Assembly (NCBI RefSeq): GCF_004104375.1 | Contig: NZ_QOVM01000001.1 | Location: forward strand, 1-64,000 | Length of the DNA stretch: 64,000 nucleotides | Source: Leeuwenhoekiella aequorea | GTDB lineage: Bacteria > Bacteroidota > Bacteroidia > Flavobacteriales > Flavobacteriaceae | Reading direction: 5' to 3' | Shown here: one piece after another, positions 55,776 through 64,000 of the stretch | How the letters are laid out: each line of letters starts with the position of its first letter | Position numbering within the stretch: the stretch's first letter is position 1 | Program-made: the position numbers and the translations under genes | Notes under the pieces: model-generated | Told to the model about the DNA's origin: nothing | Databases searched by the model: none | Seen by the model: only the letters and a program-made list of their open reading frames with translations

Positions 55776-56186
55776 TACAGTAAATGTAAAAGCGATCATA
55801 TTTTAATATCATCTTTAGAAACGATCCAGAACTTGCCTACAAGGACGCAAAATGGGAACGTTTACTCTACAACAAAGGTCTAAAGGAACTTGGCGAGCTG
55901 TGTGGCATTGAAACCCGTTTAATGTCTATGTGTACAGACACAGCTTTGCGACGCAAGCAATGTTACATATAGTGCCTGTAGTGGCTATTTCAGCAATGCT
56001 TGGATATGGCAAGTTGAGTACAACTCAAATTTATTTAAAGGATCTGCATTCTAATATTCTTGATATATATAATTAGCAGGTATACGGACAATAAAATTTT
56101 CAAGTGAAAGAAAAAAAGCTTCAACTCTATAGGCATGGAGTAATTGAATTTCATCTAAACACGATCGTTTCAAAATCTTTACCATC
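55776..56186. other. Region between regulator and BfmA-like gene
   Basis: About 410 bp; the integrase remnant (55786-56078) fills most of it. The last ~110 bp before the BfmA-like stop show no recognisable signal. Confidence 0.6.
55786..56078 (+). pseudogene. Decayed C-terminal fragment of a tyrosine recombinase
   Basis: DNA similarity of roughly 85% (by eye) to the 3' end of the intact integrase gene, matching about 40480-40780. Readable pieces are IIFRNDPELAYKDAKWERL, LKELGELCGIETRL, and after a frameshift SFATQAMLHIVPVVAI and KLSTTQIYLKDL. A base is lost near 55926, another near 55798, and the catalytic LGHSK has become LGYGK. Most remaining differences from the intact gene are silent, so the fragment derives from a once-functional relative rather than a fresh copy. 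It begins about 10 bp after the regulator stop. Confidence 0.9.
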
Positions 56187-56540
56187 TCAATCTTTAAAAG
56201 AGTCACTATTTTTCTCCAAAATTTTCCGCTCCACAAGTAAGGGTTTCTCATTTTTTTGGGGCTGAAATAAGCGCTCTAATAATTCTCGTGAAGGCTTCAA
56301 TTGTTCTGTTTCCATTCTTCTTAATATAGCCTCAACAGCATCCATGCGCTTGTCAACTAGTACGTGTAAACTATGTACAGAATCATCAAAAGGAACAAAA
56401 GGATTAATCGAATACTTCTCAAAAAAGTCCAACATGACTTCTAAGGTTTCTGTATAATTTGCATCATTTGTTATGGCGTACTTTTTAAAGCGCTCCACCG
56501 TTTCTGTATGAAAATTAATTCTGGAAAATTTAGGACTCAT
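56187..56540 (-). CDS. BfmA/BtgA-like mobilization protein
   Basis: A 117-aa protein. The start ATG 56540 (MSPKFSRINFHTETVERFKK) is preferred over one 30 bp upstream. The N-terminal half fits a ribbon-helix-helix DNA-binding plan and resembles BfmA/BtgA mobilization accessory proteins of Bacteroidota elements (NFHTETVERFKKYAITND, TLEVMLDFFEKYSINPF). The C-terminal half is a charged helix (VDKRMDAVEAILRRMETEQ). Such proteins act at oriT with a relaxase; no relaxase is in the window. This supports the idea that the element is, or was, mobilizable. Confidence 0.65.
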   Translation of the reverse strand: MSPKFSRINFHTETVERFKKYAITNDANYTETLEVMLDFFEKYSINPFVPFDDSVHSLHVLVDKRMDAVEAILRRMETEQLKPSRELLERLFQPQKNEKPLLVERKILEKNSDSFKD

Positions 56541-56570
56541 AGCTTTAAAATTTAAAATTAGGATAATCAC

Positions 56571-57335
56571 TTGCCCTGTTCATAAGGCTTGAGAAGCGTT
56601 TTTAAACTTTTTGGCGCAAAAGTGAATTTCACTCAAAATTAAAAATGATCATAAATAACTGAAATACAGTGATTTAAAACTAAAAATGAGATCTGTAACA
56701 TCGCGCAGCGTGTTACCCTCTTGCTGATCATTTTTATCCGCTTCGCTCCTCAAAACGATAACTTTTAAACCCTAAGTTATCATTAAAAATCCTCATTAAT
56801 TATGATAGCAAATAGCATCAAATTAAATGATATCAAAAAGTCTATTTACTTATTATATCTGGAGCGTTTTCCTTGTAAAATGATTGAAATAGTATTTTCA
56901 ACGTGTTCGAATTTTCAATTTTATTAAAACGAAAAAAGAGTTAGTATTCATTCCCATTTACTTCCCATAGAGCTGTATGCGTTTCCTTTTCGATTGCCCG
57001 TATTTAAAATTTAGAATTGAGAAAAGCTTTTATAAAAAGAGCGAGCTGAGGCCTGCACTGAGCAGCGTCGAAGTGAGCCTGATTATGCAAAGCGCCTCAA
57101 GCTAAATTTTAGTTCTTTAAAGAAAAGGAAACGGCTGCTGTGGAGAATGCCTAATGATAGTTTTGAGTTTATCCAATGTTGGATTTGAATACAAATTTTC
57201 AAGTCATTAGGATCAAGCGAACTTAATCCCTCTTTCAGGGATTGGGTTCAAGACCTTTGAATGAACCGCTTTTCCCGAAATGAAGTCTTTTGCGAAATGG
57301 AGGGGAATGGGGTGAAGGCTTTACTATTTGCTACT
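56571..57335. other. Long non-coding region between BfmA-like gene and defence cluster
   Basis: 765 bp without a supported gene. It contains a nested inverted-repeat structure (56981-57132), a hairpin AATCCCT/AGGGATT (57225-57243) and a smaller GGTTCA/TGAACC repeat (57245-57267). Its place upstream of a BfmA-like gene would suit an origin of transfer, but no known nic sequence could be recognised. Confidence 0.6.
56981..57132. repeat. Nested inverted-repeat element of about 150 bp
   Basis: Outer arms GTTTCCTTTTC (56981-56991) / GAAAAGGAAAC (57122-57132) are perfect. Inside them TAAAATTTAG (57005-57014) pairs with CTAAATTTTA (57102-57111), and GAGCTGAGGC near 57040 pairs imperfectly with GCCTCAAGCT near 57095. 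The whole could fold into one long imperfect hairpin. It may be a MITE-like element, a structured RNA or an oriT. Confidence 0.6.
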
Positions 57336-58406
57336 TTATTCAAGTGAACCAATATAATCTAGTTTCTCAATTCTATTTTTAGCCCATTTAAGAAGCTCCA
57401 ATTTATCATAATCTAAATCTTTATTTTTTTCAAGCATACTGATAAACTCCTTCAAGTTTTCAACACGCTTCCATTGATCAGCAATATTCAATAGTTCTTC
57501 AAATCGCTTTTCTTCTTCTACCATTTGTTTTTCAATGGCTTTGGCTTTTTGTATTTCAATTTCATTTTGCCGGTACTTAATCTCCTGATAAATTCCTTTA
57601 GCTCGATTAGTTCTTCCTAAATATTCCAACTTAGCAATAATTTCAGAAATTTTATCTTCAACAAATACTGTCTTTTGATCCTGCCATTCCTTGCCCCACC
57701 ACTCATCAATCTTAAAAGCAAGTTTCCCCGTACCTAAAAGGTCAGAACCCCATCTATCATTCTCCCTTTTAACCCTCTTATTTACTTCCCGTAAACTGAA
57801 AGGAAATAGTTCACCATGAATGTTAATTTTATAACTTTTGTTTTGTAGTTTAAAACTGTGCCCTCTTAAACGTAAATTTTTAATCAGGCAATCCATAAAA
57901 CGCAGAGCGCGAGATTGAACCTGCTTTGTAGTACTTATTGAAACTCTAGGATTATCCCTGTAATTAAAATAAACACCTCGCCTTTTACTAATCTTTTCTA
58001 TTTCAGCTTCTATACGTAAGTAATCTTGAATGAGTTCATCTGGTTTACTCAGTCTGTTTGAAACTGTTAAGTTAAGTTTAGAGTCGCTTTCGATTTCAAA
58101 CTGAATTGATAGTTCTAGTTCTTTACCTTGCAAATAAGCTTGTGAGATTAAATCTGCTTTTTGTTTTACTCTCCTCCAAATTATTTTATCCTGATCTTCA
58201 GAAGATAATTCGGGTTTTACTCCCTGTTTACCAAATTTCAGCTTAGCCCAATAACTTGATTTGGGTCTAGGAATGTTGTTCTTATTGCAGATTAAAATTA
58301 TAGAATGGTAATCTATACCATACTCATCAGTAATTTTTGATAAGGATTTAGACCAAACTAGATCATAGAACTCTTTTCGGCTAAGTCGTTCCTGCATGGG
58401 CTCCAA
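57336..58406 (-). CDS. Conserved protein of unknown function with N-terminal HTH-like domain
   Basis: A 356-aa protein. The N-terminal ~60 residues (KEFYDLVWSKSLSKITDEYG, then NNIPRPKSSYWAKLKFGK) match a widespread pattern I know from uncharacterised proteins of mobile elements, of the form YxxVW...LAxxYGxSD...IPxPxxGYWAK. It looks like a helix-turn-helix. The rest is helical and charged, with a coiled coil near 285-320. No catalytic motif is seen. It is the last gene of the minus-strand McrBC cluster, 97 bp after mcrC, and may be a regulator or a further component. Confidence 0.6.
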   Translation of the reverse strand: MEPMQERLSRKEFYDLVWSKSLSKITDEYGIDYHSIILICNKNNIPRPKSSYWAKLKFGKQGVKPELSSEDQDKIIWRRVKQKADLISQAYLQGKELELSIQFEIESDSKLNLTVSNRLSKPDELIQDYLRIEAEIEKISKRRGVYFNYRDNPRVSISTTKQVQSRALRFMDCLIKNLRLRGHSFKLQNKSYKINIHGELFPFSLREVNKRVKRENDRWGSDLLGTGKLAFKIDEWWGKEWQDQKTVFVEDKISEIIAKLEYLGRTNRAKGIYQEIKYRQNEIEIQKAKAIEKQMVEEEKRFEELLNIADQWKRVENLKEFISMLEKNKDLDYDKLELLKWAKNRIEKLDYIGSLE

Positions 58407-58503
58407 TAAGTTTTCAGAGTTTTGATTATTGAAAAATAAAAATGGCCATTATTTGTCTTTAGGGGTTATTTTTCTCGCTATTCTTGAGTTCTATTTACTT
58501 GAT

Positions 58504-59742
58504 TCAAAATCCCAGAACCCTTTTCAAATCTGAGCTAAAATTATCATTTATCCTTCCGCCTTCTAAAATGTTTATCCATGCTAAACCACAGCTATGGTTC
58601 TCACCTTTATCCTTGATAGGTTCAAATTGTTTTACTGCTGTAACTTTTTCTTTATTCGATGGATATAAGAGAATAGCTTGAGTGGATTTCCAATATTCAT
58701 TATACACATACATCTGCCGCAAGTCGTTAGTCGAAGGTTTATATTGATCAATGATTTTCCACTTGGTATCAATGATCATTGCAGTGTGGTCGCCTTTTCT
58801 AATTACAATATCAGGCCTTATGGTAATACCATTCCAAAAGGTTTTACTACGCTGTCCCAATACCTGAACCTCATCATCCCGAAAGGCTTTTTTAAGATGT
58901 ACCAAAATATATTCTTCCCAAAGATTATTCATATCAAAGAGCAACGCAATCATCTTCTCTGAACCGCTTTTGACGTTAGGTGCAAAATTGAGAATAATGA
59001 GACGGGCTATTTCTAGGGCAGTTGTATAGGGTTGTTCTTTTCGACCTAAAACCAATTTATCAAAAGTAGCCGCTGTTGCTTGGATTGCTTTTACTTCCGG
59101 AAAATCTAATTGGATGGACTTACATTTTCCATACAAATACCCTCCCCGTGTAAACTGCTCAATGATTCCTAGTGCCTGATTTAATATCTGATGAATCAAA
59201 TGATCTTTATCGTAAACCTGATGCTCTGTGTAAAAGCGTTCTTTATGTATAAGGTTTTGCGAAATTTGCTTGGCAAAAACCAATTTTCCCTTTAAAGTAT
59301 TTAGATTGCCTTGTTTGCGGTAGTATTTTTTAATAAGCCCTTGATGCATGAGTTTTTGTACCTCATTCAAATACCACTCAAAATAAATATCAAGTAAATG
59401 TTTGCTTTGTTTAGTGACATTAGCGTGATCAACTTGATTTACTTTAAGTCGCCTGGTTACCCGTAGCATCTCAATTAAAGCATTTTGCCAAGCGCCTTCA
59501 TCTGCACTGGAGCGGTCTGCTTTCGGTAATACTTCTATACACACATCATGTACCTGTAAAACGCCTACGTAGTGTTTAAAAGTGATTTTATTAAGCCCTA
59601 CTGTAAAGTATTTGTTGCCGTGAAGCTCATTTAATTTAACTAGGGCTCGAAAGTGCTTTTTCTTAAATTCGACCTTACCCTTTTTAGTTCCAATATTTAA
59701 ACTATCATACTCAAAAACTTGTATTTGCCTGGGACTATGCAT
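58504..59742 (-). CDS. mcrC: McrC-like restriction nuclease subunit
   Basis: Endonuclease partner of McrB. The preferred start is ATG 59742 (MHSPRQIQVFEYDSL, 412 aa), overlapping the mcrB stop by 8 bp; an ATG at 59772 would overlap by 38. An N-terminal beta-rich domain includes VCIEVLPKADRSSADEGAW. The C-terminal PD-(D/E)XK nuclease shows acidic residues in TIRPDIVIRKGDH and the D-x-K in AMIIDTKWKII. McrC proteins bind McrB hexamers and cut DNA when it translocates. Tight overlap with mcrB shows co-translation. Confidence 0.88.
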   Translation of the reverse strand: MHSPRQIQVFEYDSLNIGTKKGKVEFKKKHFRALVKLNELHGNKYFTVGLNKITFKHYVGVLQVHDVCIEVLPKADRSSADEGAWQNALIEMLRVTRRLKVNQVDHANVTKQSKHLLDIYFEWYLNEVQKLMHQGLIKKYYRKQGNLNTLKGKLVFAKQISQNLIHKERFYTEHQVYDKDHLIHQILNQALGIIEQFTRGGYLYGKCKSIQLDFPEVKAIQATAATFDKLVLGRKEQPYTTALEIARLIILNFAPNVKSGSEKMIALLFDMNNLWEEYILVHLKKAFRDDEVQVLGQRSKTFWNGITIRPDIVIRKGDHTAMIIDTKWKIIDQYKPSTNDLRQMYVYNEYWKSTQAILLYPSNKEKVTAVKQFEPIKDKGENHSCGLAWINILEGGRINDNFSSDLKRVLGF

Positions 59743-62455
59743 ATTCTGAAAGCTCCTGTATTGCTGCATCAAAATCTATCTCACTAAAAGGCTTTAGTAA
59801 GTAACGTGTAGTTTCATTTTCAACCGAAATTCTTGTAGACTTTGAAAATATAGCTTGGGAATCATAGTTCTCAATTTCTACAAATTCATCCCCTAAAACC
59901 AGTCCTATCTTAGAGTAGTCTTTATAAAAATATTCCTGAAGCAACGGTATAATTTTATTTTCAAAAACCTCTTGAAGTTTTAGCTGCATGTCTGCCGCCT
60001 GATATACTTCAAAAAAATAGGAATGCCCTATAGTATGATCCCGATCCAGTAAGTATTCTATACGTTTATTGATTGTTTTAAGAATTGAATCTAGACGTAT
60101 ACCTGAATAAGTATAATTATTAAAATAAGATATTTGTTTCTCATCAATTCCTTCATTAATCATTTTAGACCAGATTGCTTTTCGATCTTCATAAAGATGA
60201 TCATCTGCCCCAACAAATTTTAAAAACTGTTCTTCTTTAGTTTTATATAATTTACTTAACCAATCGTTCTCTTTATACTTCCAAAGTAATTCCCAGAAAA
60301 ATCGCTGAGGTTTTAATAAATCTGCATCTGGCATAATTTCTTTAAAAGAGAATCTTCTTCTTAAAGCAGTATCTAACGCTTCTACAGAACGGTCAGCAGT
60401 GTTCATTGTACCAATTATATATACATTTGAGGGTATTGAAAAAGTTTCTTTAGAATAAGGTAAAGTAACCTCAATCATTTCTTTATTATCCTTACGCTTA
60501 TCCGGTTCAAGTAACGTTATCAACTCTCCAAAAATGGCTGATACATTTCCTCGGTTAATTTCATCTATAATGAGCACATAATTTTTCTTGGTTTGCTTGG
60601 CTTTCTTACTATCTTTTAATCCGCATTGATCTTTTAAATGCTCAAGAATGCTCTTTACATAACTGGGATTATACATTCCTGCAGTATCCTTACCGATATA
60701 CAGTTTTTTTATAAAATCAATAGAAGCCGGGTAATCTGGTTGTTCATTTACACTGTTTTCTGGGTTTACTCTAAAGGTTGTACCACCATTATAACCAACT
60801 CTGAATTTTTTACCCCTACTCGTTTGTAACTGTTGCTCTCCTTCATTTTCTATTTTAGTTTTAAATTTTTCAATAGCATCTTCTACTGTTTCACTGCCTC
60901 CTTCTGCGTGTTCACACAATTCTTTAAATACACCGGGTTGTACTTTATATATTACCTCTTCTTTTTCATTGGTTTCAGGCTTAATCCCTTCTACAAAATC
61001 CTCATATCCAAAACTTTGATGAAACGTAGTAAACGCAACTTGTTTTGATTCAACTAAAGAGTTATAAACTTCATTAATCTGCTCTCGATAACTCAAATTT
61101 TTCGAAGGGTCATAATCAAAATCTGGCTTTGCAATAGAAACAGCGATTTCTTTAGTAGAATAAGTTTTTCCAGTACCTGGAGGACCGTATAAAATTTGAT
61201 TTAAAGGAATATTAAACTCTTCAATGTTTTCAAAAAGTTCTTGATTTATATTATTCAGGAATATTTTCTCAATAGCACTTTTGTTCCATACCCTGCTTAT
61301 TGTATTCCTATAACCACCTTGACCTATTAATTTTACAGGTTTAAAATTAGGCTCCCAATCCACCTCCAACTCCCTGCCGTCATTACGGTTACCCTTTACA
61401 ATACCACGTGCATGAACTTCTAAGACTGGGATTGTACGCCCTTCCTTTTTCATCGTATAAGTGGTTTTAGCTGCTATTGCTGCTCCTACAAGCACTTTAT
61501 TAGTAGCATCGATAAACTTTGTTTTATACCCATTGACCCATATACCTTCTTCTAAAAATTTACTAAGTTGATTGGTGTCTTTAGTACCGTAATAGTGAAA
61601 CCCAACGCAGTAGTAGGCTGGTACATTTTTATAATCTTGTATTGATTTCTCTCCACTCATAAATTCATTGACATTTAAATTCTTAAATAAGATATATTTT
61701 AAAGCGTTGCTAGTAGTACCAGCATCCTTATTCCATTGGGTACGTTTAGAATCTTTAATATGTTCATATTGAAGCCTAAACTGATTTTTAAACTCTTCTA
61801 ATACTTCGTGATCAATTTCTGACCAATTATCAACTTGTAGTTTTATATAACTTTGATCGGGTACACCTTTATAATCATAGCTATAATTAATAGTATACTT
61901 ATTCTCTAAATGCTTCTTAAATTTTGGGCTTATCAAAAGTCCTATATAGGATTTCGAGTCTTTTTCACTATAGGAGTACGCGGCTCTCATACCTACGATA
62001 ATAGAAAGATCACCATCAGCTTCAATTGCCATTCTTACCTTATAGACCTCAATCTCTAGATCTGATAAAATACTTTGCCCAAAATTTATAAAATCCTGAA
62101 AAAGTGTTCTATTCTTAATTTTGGTCTCAATATGTTTTATAAGTTTACTTTTATCTGGGTTATTGTAAACTAAATCTTCTGTGATTTTAAAACCGAAATC
62201 TTCAATGAATTGATTTGTAGATAGACCACCTCCTATTCTTTTCATTTCTATTTCTGGGTGCTCTTCTTCTACAATTTGTGCAGCTCTGCCTAAAACAATC
62301 TTAGGTGGCATTTTGATTCCTTTATATTCCACATGATACCGTTCACTCCTATTGGTATCTGGCCAATCTTCATTGTTTTTTAGTACCCTTTCGATAGTTG
62401 ATTTCCAGATTTGGTTTTCCTTTTCAGTCATAGAATTATCTTGATTTAGCAGCAT
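59735..62455 (-). CDS. mcrB: McrB-like AAA+ GTPase with unusual N-terminal recognition domains
   Basis: A 906-aa motor subunit, about twice E. coli McrB (459 aa). Residues about 10-90 resemble a ScoMcrA-type head domain (VEYKGIKMPPKIVLGRAA, GGLSTNQFIEDFGFKI). About 110-250 is unassigned (FQDFINFGQSILSDLEIEVY). About 275-390 looks like an EVE/PUA-type reader (YYCVGFHYYG, KVLVGAAIAAKTTYT, RGIVKGNRNDGRELEVDWE). The AAA+ core has Walker A ILYGPPGTGKTYSTKE (about 421-436), Walker B YVLIIDEINRGNVSAI and the McrB signature MNTADRSVEALDTALRRRF. The start may be 62455 (20-bp overlap with the preceding gene) or ATG 62431. It presumably recognises modified bases; that is inference. Confidence 0.88.
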   Translation of the reverse strand: MLLNQDNSMTEKENQIWKSTIERVLKNNEDWPDTNRSERYHVEYKGIKMPPKIVLGRAAQIVEEEHPEIEMKRIGGGLSTNQFIEDFGFKITEDLVYNNPDKSKLIKHIETKIKNRTLFQDFINFGQSILSDLEIEVYKVRMAIEADGDLSIIVGMRAAYSYSEKDSKSYIGLLISPKFKKHLENKYTINYSYDYKGVPDQSYIKLQVDNWSEIDHEVLEEFKNQFRLQYEHIKDSKRTQWNKDAGTTSNALKYILFKNLNVNEFMSGEKSIQDYKNVPAYYCVGFHYYGTKDTNQLSKFLEEGIWVNGYKTKFIDATNKVLVGAAIAAKTTYTMKKEGRTIPVLEVHARGIVKGNRNDGRELEVDWEPNFKPVKLIGQGGYRNTISRVWNKSAIEKIFLNNINQELFENIEEFNIPLNQILYGPPGTGKTYSTKEIAVSIAKPDFDYDPSKNLSYREQINEVYNSLVESKQVAFTTFHQSFGYEDFVEGIKPETNEKEEVIYKVQPGVFKELCEHAEGGSETVEDAIEKFKTKIENEGEQQLQTSRGKKFRVGYNGGTTFRVNPENSVNEQPDYPASIDFIKKLYIGKDTAGMYNPSYVKSILEHLKDQCGLKDSKKAKQTKKNYVLIIDEINRGNVSAIFGELITLLEPDKRKDNKEMIEVTLPYSKETFSIPSNVYIIGTMNTADRSVEALDTALRRRFSFKEIMPDADLLKPQRFFWELLWKYKENDWLSKLYKTKEEQFLKFVGADDHLYEDRKAIWSKMINEGIDEKQISYFNNYTYSGIRLDSILKTINKRIEYLLDRDHTIGHSYFFEVYQAADMQLKLQEVFENKIIPLLQEYFYKDYSKIGLVLGDEFVEIENYDSQAIFSKSTRISVENETTRYLLKPFSEIDFDAAIQELSEYA

Positions 62456-63104
62456 AAATGATGGTATTGACTGTAATAAGAAAAGTCAATAGGCCACATA
62501 CACATGCAATAAGATTAAAGGTGTTGAGTCTGAAAATATTTATTAGTAAATAAACATCGAAACAGATGGGTCCAAAAAGAACAATAGCTTGTAAAGCTGT
62601 ACCTGACCACTTCATCCACTTTTTTAAATCTTTCTTTTCTGTTTGATAATCTAACCCATGAAATAAAATGCTAAATGGTCGTATCGCATTTAACGTTTCA
62701 CTTAGTGAACCAATTTTATAAAGGTCTTTAGCCAACTGGTCAAACTTTATTCTAAGGTCATTGTTATTGTACCAGCGAATAATATTTGCCATGTATAGAT
62801 AACTGAATAAAACAGCTATTCCATTAAGAAGTTTATACTTATCGGTTAGTTGAAAGCTTAATATATTAACTTTTTTAATGTAATCCCACAATACCAAAAA
62901 ATAGATTACTACACTTACCACAAGCACAAAAGAATTACGCTGTATGGCTCTATTGTTTGACCGAATATTTTCTGTTATAAGATTGAGGTAATTTTGCTTA
63001 CTGGATTCTGATTCTATCTCTTGATCTTTATTAGAGTCAAGTATTTCAGGAATCTCAATTTCTGAGGCTATTTGCTTTAAGTATTCGTTCTCTACTTCTG
63101 TCAT
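62436..63104 (-). CDS. Four-helix membrane protein in the McrBC cluster, unknown function
   Basis: A 222-aa protein with a charged N-terminal ~55 residues (EIPEILDSNKDQEIESESSK) and four membrane segments: about 58-77 (SFVLVVSVVIYFLVLWDYI), 90-110, 165-185 (ALQAIVLFGPICFDVYLLI) and 196-215 (LIACVCGLLTFLITVNTII). The loop between helices 2 and 3 is soluble and helical. It lies 2 bp after the pentapeptide-like gene and overlaps mcrB by up to 20 bp, so it belongs to the operon. No family recognised. A membrane effector is possible. Confidence 0.7.
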   Translation of the reverse strand: MTEVENEYLKQIASEIEIPEILDSNKDQEIESESSKQNYLNLITENIRSNNRAIQRNSFVLVVSVVIYFLVLWDYIKKVNILSFQLTDKYKLLNGIAVLFSYLYMANIIRWYNNNDLRIKFDQLAKDLYKIGSLSETLNAIRPFSILFHGLDYQTEKKDLKKWMKWSGTALQAIVLFGPICFDVYLLINIFRLNTFNLIACVCGLLTFLITVNTIIYAAKSR

Positions 63105-63106
63105 CT

Positions 63107-64000
63107 TTACTTTCCACTAAATTTTCTAAAAGCTCTAATTATTTGAAAGATGAAAATGCCTAAGATCAATCGATGAAGAAGGTCTAACAAATACAGAAAA
63201 GCACTTCTATCTTCTCCGTAAACGCTTTCAAACTTTCTAGCAGGATTAAATATTTGCCAGTAAACCTTAAAATGACCAATGCATTCCAACCAAGTCATCT
63301 TAACCTCTTCCCAAGAAGTTGCATAGCAATACTGCAATTTGTCAGAAAAGAGAGGTAGCTCTATTAAGTAAAAACCAAGAGTTATTAAGGCTACAATCCA
63401 AAGTGGTTTAAACCAATCTATCCCATAATTATTAGTCATATTTACGGTCATAATTAATTTATCATTGCTGCCATAATTGTCTGAACTTTTTAGTTCCGCT
63501 CTATGTGCTCGCATCTCTCTTGCTTGAAACAAAAGACTATCTATTTGATTGCCCTGCGATTTTAATGCATGTTTTATTTGCCTATATATTTCCCTACGTG
63601 TTCTATGTGCTTTAGAAGTATTATTATCAGAAAATCCCATAACCAGTTGGCTGTCATCAAACCAATTCACATTAGAGCATTTTATCCCATCAAATGAAGT
63701 ATTCTCTACATTGATCGTAAGGAAACTTCTAAAATCCATCTCAGTAAATCTGGTAGTACCCAGATCATTATGAGCCATTATAATTGCACTTGAGTCAACC
63801 AGATTTGTTTTAAAGAGTTCATTCTCTGCTTGGCACCTTTCAAAAGTGACATCTGCATAATTTGTAAACTCTATCATTTTGAGCGTGCGTATACTCATCT
63901 GGCATAAAAGAAGTTTTAGATTTTGATTTATACCTGAAATATTCAACTCTGCTACCCGCCAATTTTGAATACGTAAAACACCTTTTAAATCTGGGGTAAT
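63107..64000 (-). CDS. Pentapeptide-repeat-like protein with two-helix channel-like C-terminus (partial)
   Basis: The frame stays open to the window end, so the gene starts outside; at least 297 codons are visible. The N-terminal visible part has pentapeptide-like spacing (VTFERCQAENELFKTNLVDSS, CSNVNW). A middle segment (RREIYRQIKHALKSQGNQ, LFQAREMRAHRAELK) recurs in pentapeptide-channel proteins. Two membrane helices lie near the C-terminus (PLWIVALITLGFYLIELPL; LLDLLHRLILGIFIFQII) with a loop between them rich in aromatic residues. The layout is that of two-helix ion-channel-like membrane proteins. Function unknown; it is the first seen gene of the cluster. It lies 2 bp ahead of the four-helix protein. 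Confidence 0.65.
   Translation of the reverse strand: MTPDLKGVLRIQNWRVAELNISGINQNLKLLLCQMSIRTLKMIEFTNYADVTFERCQAENELFKTNLVDSSAIIMAHNDLGTTRFTEMDFRSFLTINVENTSFDGIKCSNVNWFDDSQLVMGFSDNNTSKAHRTRREIYRQIKHALKSQGNQIDSLLFQAREMRAHRAELKSSDNYGSNDKLIMTVNMTNNYGIDWFKPLWIVALITLGFYLIELPLFSDKLQYCYATSWEEVKMTWLECIGHFKVYWQIFNPARKFESVYGEDRSAFLYLLDLLHRLILGIFIFQIIRAFRKFSGK

Follow-up and report, generated by a model that had tools for sequence, protein, structure and literature searches.

The eight-gene run described here lies on contig NZ_QOVM01000001.1 of Leeuwenhoekiella aequorea, at the right end of a 64,000-nt stretch (the window), and in order of transcription reads hsdR-hsdM-hsdS-PP-TM4-mcrB-mcrC-YWAK, all on the minus strand. 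It thus strings together a complete Type I restriction system, two genes for predicted membrane proteins (PP and TM4), the McrBC restriction genes and a last gene that we call YWAK. The window ends inside the locus, PP and the Type I system continuing beyond its right edge. A first-pass annotation of the window had described the last five genes as tightly packed on the minus strand, with TM4 2 bp after PP, and an open reading frame (ORF) check bore this out, all five being open. The pentapeptide/two-helix protein (PP) that it placed first in the run is real, although the window had cut it short (578 aa when whole), and it is not the first gene: the hsdS gene stops 15 bp ahead of it, preceded in turn by hsdM and hsdR. 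Further upstream, hsdR and hsdM are separated by 93 bp and hsdM and hsdS overlap by 8 bp. Downstream, an overlap of up to 20 bp had been proposed between TM4 and mcrB; the most likely McrB start is instead the ninth codon of the listed ORF, which leaves 4 bp after the TM4 stop and no overlap; the McrB relative of genome G287 begins with a matching MTEEEKQIW. The overlap of mcrB and mcrC, previously given as 8-38 bp, comes to 8 bp with the most likely McrC start, at 59742, and the 97-bp gap before YWAK holds for a TTG start and becomes 106 bp with an ATG start. Because the genes are so tightly spaced, co-transcription appears likely. No terminator-like site was found between two genes on the strand of the run; two lie inside genes (hsdR and mcrB), and the total of eight is at chance level (8.8 expected). 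A 15-pair terminator-like hairpin stands immediately after the tRNA-Ala gene that borders the locus, and a Bacteroidetes-type promoter pattern gave no matches (1.5 expected).

PP and TM4 were found side by side in two loci only, that of L. aequorea and one in Leeuwenhoekiella polynyae (genome G144, locus L041, contig NZ_QOVK01000020.1). The two share similar DNA (78.8% over 2471 alignment columns) that starts exactly with the PP start codon and stops 55 bp downstream of TM4. Immediately 3' of TM4 in L. polynyae, exactly at the expected place, 38 of 51 bases match the 5' end of L. aequorea mcrB. The same 51-base comparison on the plus strand of 49 other loci (~20 kb each) gave 31 matches at best (mean 27.4), and none of 100,000 shuffles of the L. 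polynyae stretch reached 38. Mismatches at codon positions 1, 2 and 3 number 2, 4 and 7; the start codon is lost and in-frame stops are present. Because the McrB of G287, with no TM4 in front of it, opens with much the same residues, the 55-bp stretch is best read as old mcrB coding sequence and not as a spacer. The remnant occupies L041:3301-3378, directly behind the intact pair, and GmrSD starts ~100 bp past TM4, followed by SIR2 and HerA. Upstream, at the contig end, lies the 124-aa tail of a methyltransferase-type gene, which our marker model recognised (E 1.4e-7) and for which Pfam gave no match. McrC was not found in the L. polynyae genome. Taken with the mcrB remnant, this points to a common ancestor of both loci that had PP-TM4 before mcrB, McrBC having later been lost in L. 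polynyae, where GmrSD is now found.

PP and TM4 are both kept intact under purifying selection, with ratios of nonsynonymous to synonymous divergence (dN/dS) between the two species of 0.166/0.847 = 0.20 for PP and 0.108/0.965 = 0.11 for TM4. Synonymous divergence of the cassette (0.85-0.97) is far lower than that of a flanking core gene (2.9, one gene and near saturation), and 19 kb at the tRNA-Ala site of L. polynyae hold no cassette, a combination that fits horizontal movement. In genome G207, TM4 has a stop within its reading frame and lies next to a GmrSD 71% identical to that of L. polynyae, behind hsdM, hsdS and another two-helix protein. Altogether, PP-TM4 appears to behave as a self-contained cassette that has visibly changed partner, from McrBC to GmrSD. 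The first-pass annotation had joined the membrane genes and McrBC into one unit, triggered by McrBC: the pair is indeed linked, and stands ahead of mcrB (now dead) in a second locus, but triggering by McrBC is not supported, the pair being intact in L. polynyae, where no McrC was found.

Table 1. Features of the locus; positions below 64,000 fall within the window.
Feature	Position	Strand	Description
PP	63107..64000 in window, to contig position 64843	-	C-terminal 297 of 578 aa in window
PP features		-	pentapeptide-like repeat region and two hydrophobic helices at C-terminus
TM4	62436..63104	-	222 aa, predicted helical membrane protein
mcrB	59735..62431	-	898 aa from likelier start; listed ORF starts 62455
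mcrC	58504..59742	-	412 aa from likelier start; listed ORF starts 59772; PD...DTK nuclease motif visible
YWAK	57336..58406	-	356 aa; N-terminal helix-turn-helix-like segment (reading of pattern)
hsdS	contig positions 64859-66850	-	663 aa
hsdM	contig positions 66843-68462	-	539 aa
hsdR	contig positions 68556-71648	-	1030 aa
tRNA-Ala(ggc)	contig positions 71923-71997
BfmA/BtgA-type mobilization protein	56187..56540	-	NCBIfam NF041200, E 1.8e-16 for listed ORF 56187-56570; near left end of island

We examined how widely the accessory genes occur and which genes surround them. TM4 is rare, being present in five of 299 genomes drawn from the family and two of 395 drawn from the phylum (L. aequorea counted in both). 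A pattern-based scan of the genome collection, which can miss divergent relatives, returned four loci, three of them already known from the family draw, so that seven TM4 loci were examined in all, L. aequorea included. PP relatives occur in 13/299 family genomes and, by a profile of the C-terminal domain, in 11 of 345 genomes; YWAK occurs in 19/299 of the family, again with L. aequorea. Restriction markers (HsdM, HsdR, GmrSD, McrB and McrC) were then sought within 8 kb, with models whose seeds came from the L. aequorea operon and from GmrSD of L. polynyae, and which were extended jointly on test and control loci. The control places were 20 hand-picked round coordinates, one per genome, on contigs of test loci and all from the family draw, whereas the phylum draw, which is wider, supplied ten of the PP loci. 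Three loci are shortened by contig ends (L041, L044 and L073), and we left out the PP locus of G202, the YWAK loci of G083 and G262 (partial or with stops) and the G689 tRNA site.

With L. aequorea counted in each, McrB or McrC lay within 8 kb in one of the seven TM4 loci, 2/23 PP loci and 2/17 YWAK loci, and neither was near in the other 6/7, 21/23 and 15/17. This co-occurrence check led us to reject a fixed unit of PP, TM4 and YWAK with McrBC, as the first-pass annotation had proposed it. Any restriction marker at all was found in 3/7 TM4, 8/23 PP and 9/17 YWAK loci versus 0/20 control places; without L. aequorea the counts become 2/6, 7/22 and 8/16 (one-sided Fisher p 0.046, 0.006 and 0.0004, respectively). 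Because McrBC is near in so few of these loci, the accessory genes are in general linked to loci of restriction and defence rather than to McrBC. Anywhere in the genome, McrC was found in two of nine other genomes with TM4 or a full-length PP that were searched.

Individual PP loci deserve mention. In G159, Pfam finds a 98-aa GmrSD_N fragment (L046:8730-9026) 23 bp before a full-length PP, which the marker model missed; the locus is one of the 15 PP loci counted without a marker, and it adds a third case in which this PP subfamily meets GmrSD or McrBC. G153 carries a Type I locus (L045:62-11261) whose HsdR and HsdM are 58% and 65% identical to those of L. aequorea; two small genes separate hsdS from PP, which stands further downstream, and an AbiV-family HEPN gene comes after PP. 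In L047 and L048, a full-length PP without a restriction marker occupies the same place in two genomes of one genus.

What the two proteins might do was addressed by profile and structure comparisons. PP resembles pentapeptide-repeat proteins with two C-terminal membrane helices in that 15 of 21 PP family members match Pentapeptide_3 (Pfam, E<=0.1) and in its two terminal hydrophobic stretches (residues 478-496 and 548-566). PP of L. aequorea itself does not match, and its L. polynyae ortholog reaches E 1.4e-4 at 22.5 bits, the curated cut-off being 27. TM4 has three hydrophobic stretches by hydropathy and four long helices in a predicted model (mean predicted local distance difference test score, pLDDT, 67), for which a fold search gave no match (best E 0.16). 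No Pfam match of TM4 came near the cut-off (best E 0.041), there was none in PADLOC, NCBIfam or PHROGs, and no PADLOC model matched PP, TM4 or YWAK. By analogy with pentapeptide-repeat channels, we considered that the PP C-terminus could be a two-helix cation channel (Ion_trans_2), an idea that neither profile comparison nor a PDB fold search supported. PP is unlike such proteins in that Ion_trans_2 matched none of the 21 family members, and hhalign of 17 PP sequences against a set of 28 proteins, drawn from Ion_trans_2 loci and bearing a filter-like motif, gave a probability of 0.3% (E 0.18 over 12 columns), in a comparison run without a positive control. Foldseek with the model of the PP C-terminus (mean pLDDT 79) found nothing at E<=0.001 (best 3.5), pore-domain chains appearing only as non-significant matches. 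Scans of viral contigs for TM4 and the PP C-terminus found no relatives among 90 and 59 candidate stretches, respectively; phage records held no match for either, nor plasmid records for PP or TM4.

All Type I subunits were confirmed in Pfam: HsdR by HSDR_N (7.2e-27) and SWI2_SNF2 (6.9e-41), HsdM by N6_Mtase (5.5e-67) and HsdS by two stretches of Methylase_S (7.6e-26). HsdS (L002:9860-11851) extends for ~230 residues beyond its two specificity domains, and among the 25 PADLOC matches listed nearly all stop near or before residue 430, one reaching 512 and one 660. The McrBC identity proposed in the first-pass annotation stands. McrC is a full-length family member of the DUF2357/PD-(D/E)xK architecture (Pfam McrBC, E 3.5e-60 over residues 64-371) and aligns to a solved McrC at E 6.2e-23, while McrB matches solved McrB GTPases (best E 4e-55). 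With GPPGTGKT, LIIDEINRG and MNTAD visible, the McrB GTPase reads as one of the ordinary type, with Walker motifs and the NxxD signature as given in PMC11090510. The N-terminal region of McrB, the part that would read modified bases, is less familiar: the best Pfam stretches of a whole-protein scan all lie beyond residue 411, and residues 1-400 had no PDB sequence match at E<=10. We considered the CoCoNuT subclass, which we take to fall among the NxD clades, and rejected it, the motif here being NTAD (NxxD) rather than NxD. PMC11090510 gives the NxD variant for the teal and yellow clades.

Relatives of part of the McrB N-terminal region occur in 11/299 genomes of the family draw. Ten further loci carry one, and five of these have McrC, with Type I markers on the same strand in three (the first G287 locus, G179 and G007) and none on that strand in the other two (the second G287 locus and G080). 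G078 also combines Type I and McrBC genes in a same-strand run, with a PP relative and a 186-aa gene between hsdS and hsdR. The place between hsdR and mcrB is taken in G287 by one DUF4062 and one Schlafen-AlbA_2 gene (L134:7909-9986). Because the inserts of G287 and G078 differ, such runs seem to carry varying extra genes, which suggests a variable slot for them.

The run occupies a genomic island at tRNA-Ala. A flanking GNAT gene is present in 13/13 genus genomes searched, L. aequorea included, and tRNA-Ala(ggc) lies within ~1.2 kb of it in 11/11 other genus genomes examined. In two of these 11 (G679 and G681), LuxR-type and SusC-type genes follow ~1 and ~4 kb past the tRNA with no island; the same two genes are the flanks of the island in L. 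aequorea. With integrases near the same tRNA in G687 and G684, the site looks like an insertion hotspot. A second copy of the tRNA-Ala 3' end was not found in the 19-kb stretch of the locus. Between the flanking regulator and YWAK, window positions 55776-57335 are gene-poor, holding the mobilization gene and a small overlapping ORF, and are possibly mobile-element remains. YWAK had been taken for a part of the McrBC unit. Its relatives are found in varied defence loci, including the 3' ends of two Piwi-domain-gene operons from two genera (G244 and G054; L056:9076-10215 and L057:9414-10547) and a place behind hsdR in G174, and it is probably a separate island gene outside the cassette. In Pfam only RWP-RK was matched (best E 0.018, 2/13 members) and PDB sequences gave no useful match; the conserved N-terminus looks helix-turn-helix-like, and YWAK is perhaps a regulator.

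Our tentative preference, held at somewhat under even confidence, is that PP-TM4 is a portable pair of membrane effectors, serving as a backup to restriction independently of McrBC. With the same reserve, we would rank it ahead of, in this order, unconnected cargo, a membrane platform and a strict PrrC-type guard. The locus would then be a layered defence operon in the tRNA-Ala island, made of the Type I system, PP-TM4 and McrBC, in which the Type I layer would cut DNA without the host mark and the McrBC layer would cut modified DNA. The pentapeptide-like part of PP may detect infection, or the failure of restriction, whereupon the membrane segments of both proteins might damage or depolarise the membrane so that the phage is stopped, with no need for McrBC. 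We infer that restriction operons carry the pair as a backup; a bolder form, in which an undescribed two-protein membrane effector attaches itself to restriction operons and survives the loss of the nuclease beside it, seems doubtful as yet. If it were true, a restriction locus would gain a third, membrane-acting layer, firing whichever DNA-cutting system is adjacent, and the nuclease behind the pair would be exchangeable (McrBC lost, GmrSD present) while the pair persists.

Several observations speak against an effector pair. No toxin, channel or pore family was recognised in PP or TM4 by Pfam, PADLOC, fold or profile searches, and purifying selection is evidence of use, not of defence. The dead mcrB is one single event, and PP and TM4 occur together only in the two loci. 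No restriction marker lies within 8 kb in 15/23 PP loci and 4/7 TM4 loci, several PP relatives appear solitary, and the association of TM4 with restriction is weak (p 0.046), resting on six loci.

Another explanation is that PP-TM4 is unconnected cargo of mobile islands with its own, possibly non-defensive role, co-transcribed with restriction genes only incidentally. Those 15 of 23 PP loci would be expected of cargo, as would the pair kept in L. polynyae where no McrC was found, and in two genomes of one genus PP lies near a gene that we take to be thiC-like, named by eye from its sequence. We nevertheless hold this explanation to be rather improbable. Markers were found at 7/22 PP loci other than L. 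aequorea and at 0/20 controls, and the cassette sits inside a tight same-strand run (gaps of 15, 2 and 4 bp). Moreover, both pair loci follow a gene of a methyltransferase system (in L. polynyae the 124-aa tail, seen by the marker model only and not by Pfam), and both precede mcrB or its remnant.

Less probable again, and unlikely in our view, is that the pair acts as a membrane platform, holding the restriction enzymes close to where DNA enters and docking them through the PP repeat region. The position of PP 15 bp behind hsdS and of TM4 4 bp ahead of mcrB would suit such a role, and the long repeat region would make a plausible binding surface. However, the neighbours differ in L. polynyae, where the pair persists next to GmrSD and SIR2-HerA, and PP-TM4 has therefore no fixed partner. 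Least probable of all is a PrrC-like guard, which the Type I enzyme would keep silent until a phage protein inhibits that enzyme. PrrC itself is kept silent by the Type I enzyme to which it is linked, and a phage anti-restriction factor switches it on (PMC2610378). PP does stand directly behind hsdS on the same strand here (15 bp) and downstream of hsdS, past two small genes, in G153, but the upstream gene of L. polynyae, where the contig starts, was not recognised as hsdS, and solitary PP relatives exist.

The effector pair, if such it is, would be an addition to known arrangements. The E. coli-type McrBC branch is frequently found with Type I systems, potentially in one operon, and the prevalent associations of these branches are Type I restriction-modification (RM), a DISARM-like system and methyltransferases, as stated in section 6 of PMC11090510. 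Same-strand Type I and McrBC runs in G078, G287, G179 and G007 agree with that published census. The L. aequorea locus is like the Type I RM and McrBC loci of the E. coli K-12 branch in its unidirectional hsd and mcrBC genes, possibly in one operon, and unlike them in having two membrane-protein genes between hsdS and mcrB; membrane genes are not among the associations named for these branches in that section of the paper. In the open-access literature (subscription papers being outside the scope of the search) we found, among the titles and abstract openings listed, no description of such membrane genes with McrBC or Type I systems. Type I and McrBC genes in one operon are thus already published (PMC11090510), and the new part is the PP-TM4 pair between them. 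PrrC and RloC offer a parallel, as effectors tied to Type I restriction that could come into play once restriction has been overcome, although a Type I link is rare for RloC (PMC2610378). They are tRNA nucleases with ABC ATPase motifs; neither Pfam nor PADLOC gave such a match for PP or TM4, which are predicted to be membrane proteins. In L. polynyae, GmrSD Type IV restriction with SIR2-HerA occupies the place behind PP-TM4 that mcrBC holds in L. aequorea; GmrSD is an unrelated nuclease, and no model in PADLOC matched PP or TM4.

Joint Type I/McrBC operons were thus known, with extra genes inside them to which no role is assigned, and PP-TM4 is one such insert that is demonstrably discrete: in L. 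polynyae both membrane genes have stayed whole, next to a dead mcrB end and a different modification-dependent nuclease. Should PP-TM4 prove to be an effector, the backups carried by restriction loci would include one that acts on the membrane, besides the tRNA-cutting ones already known.

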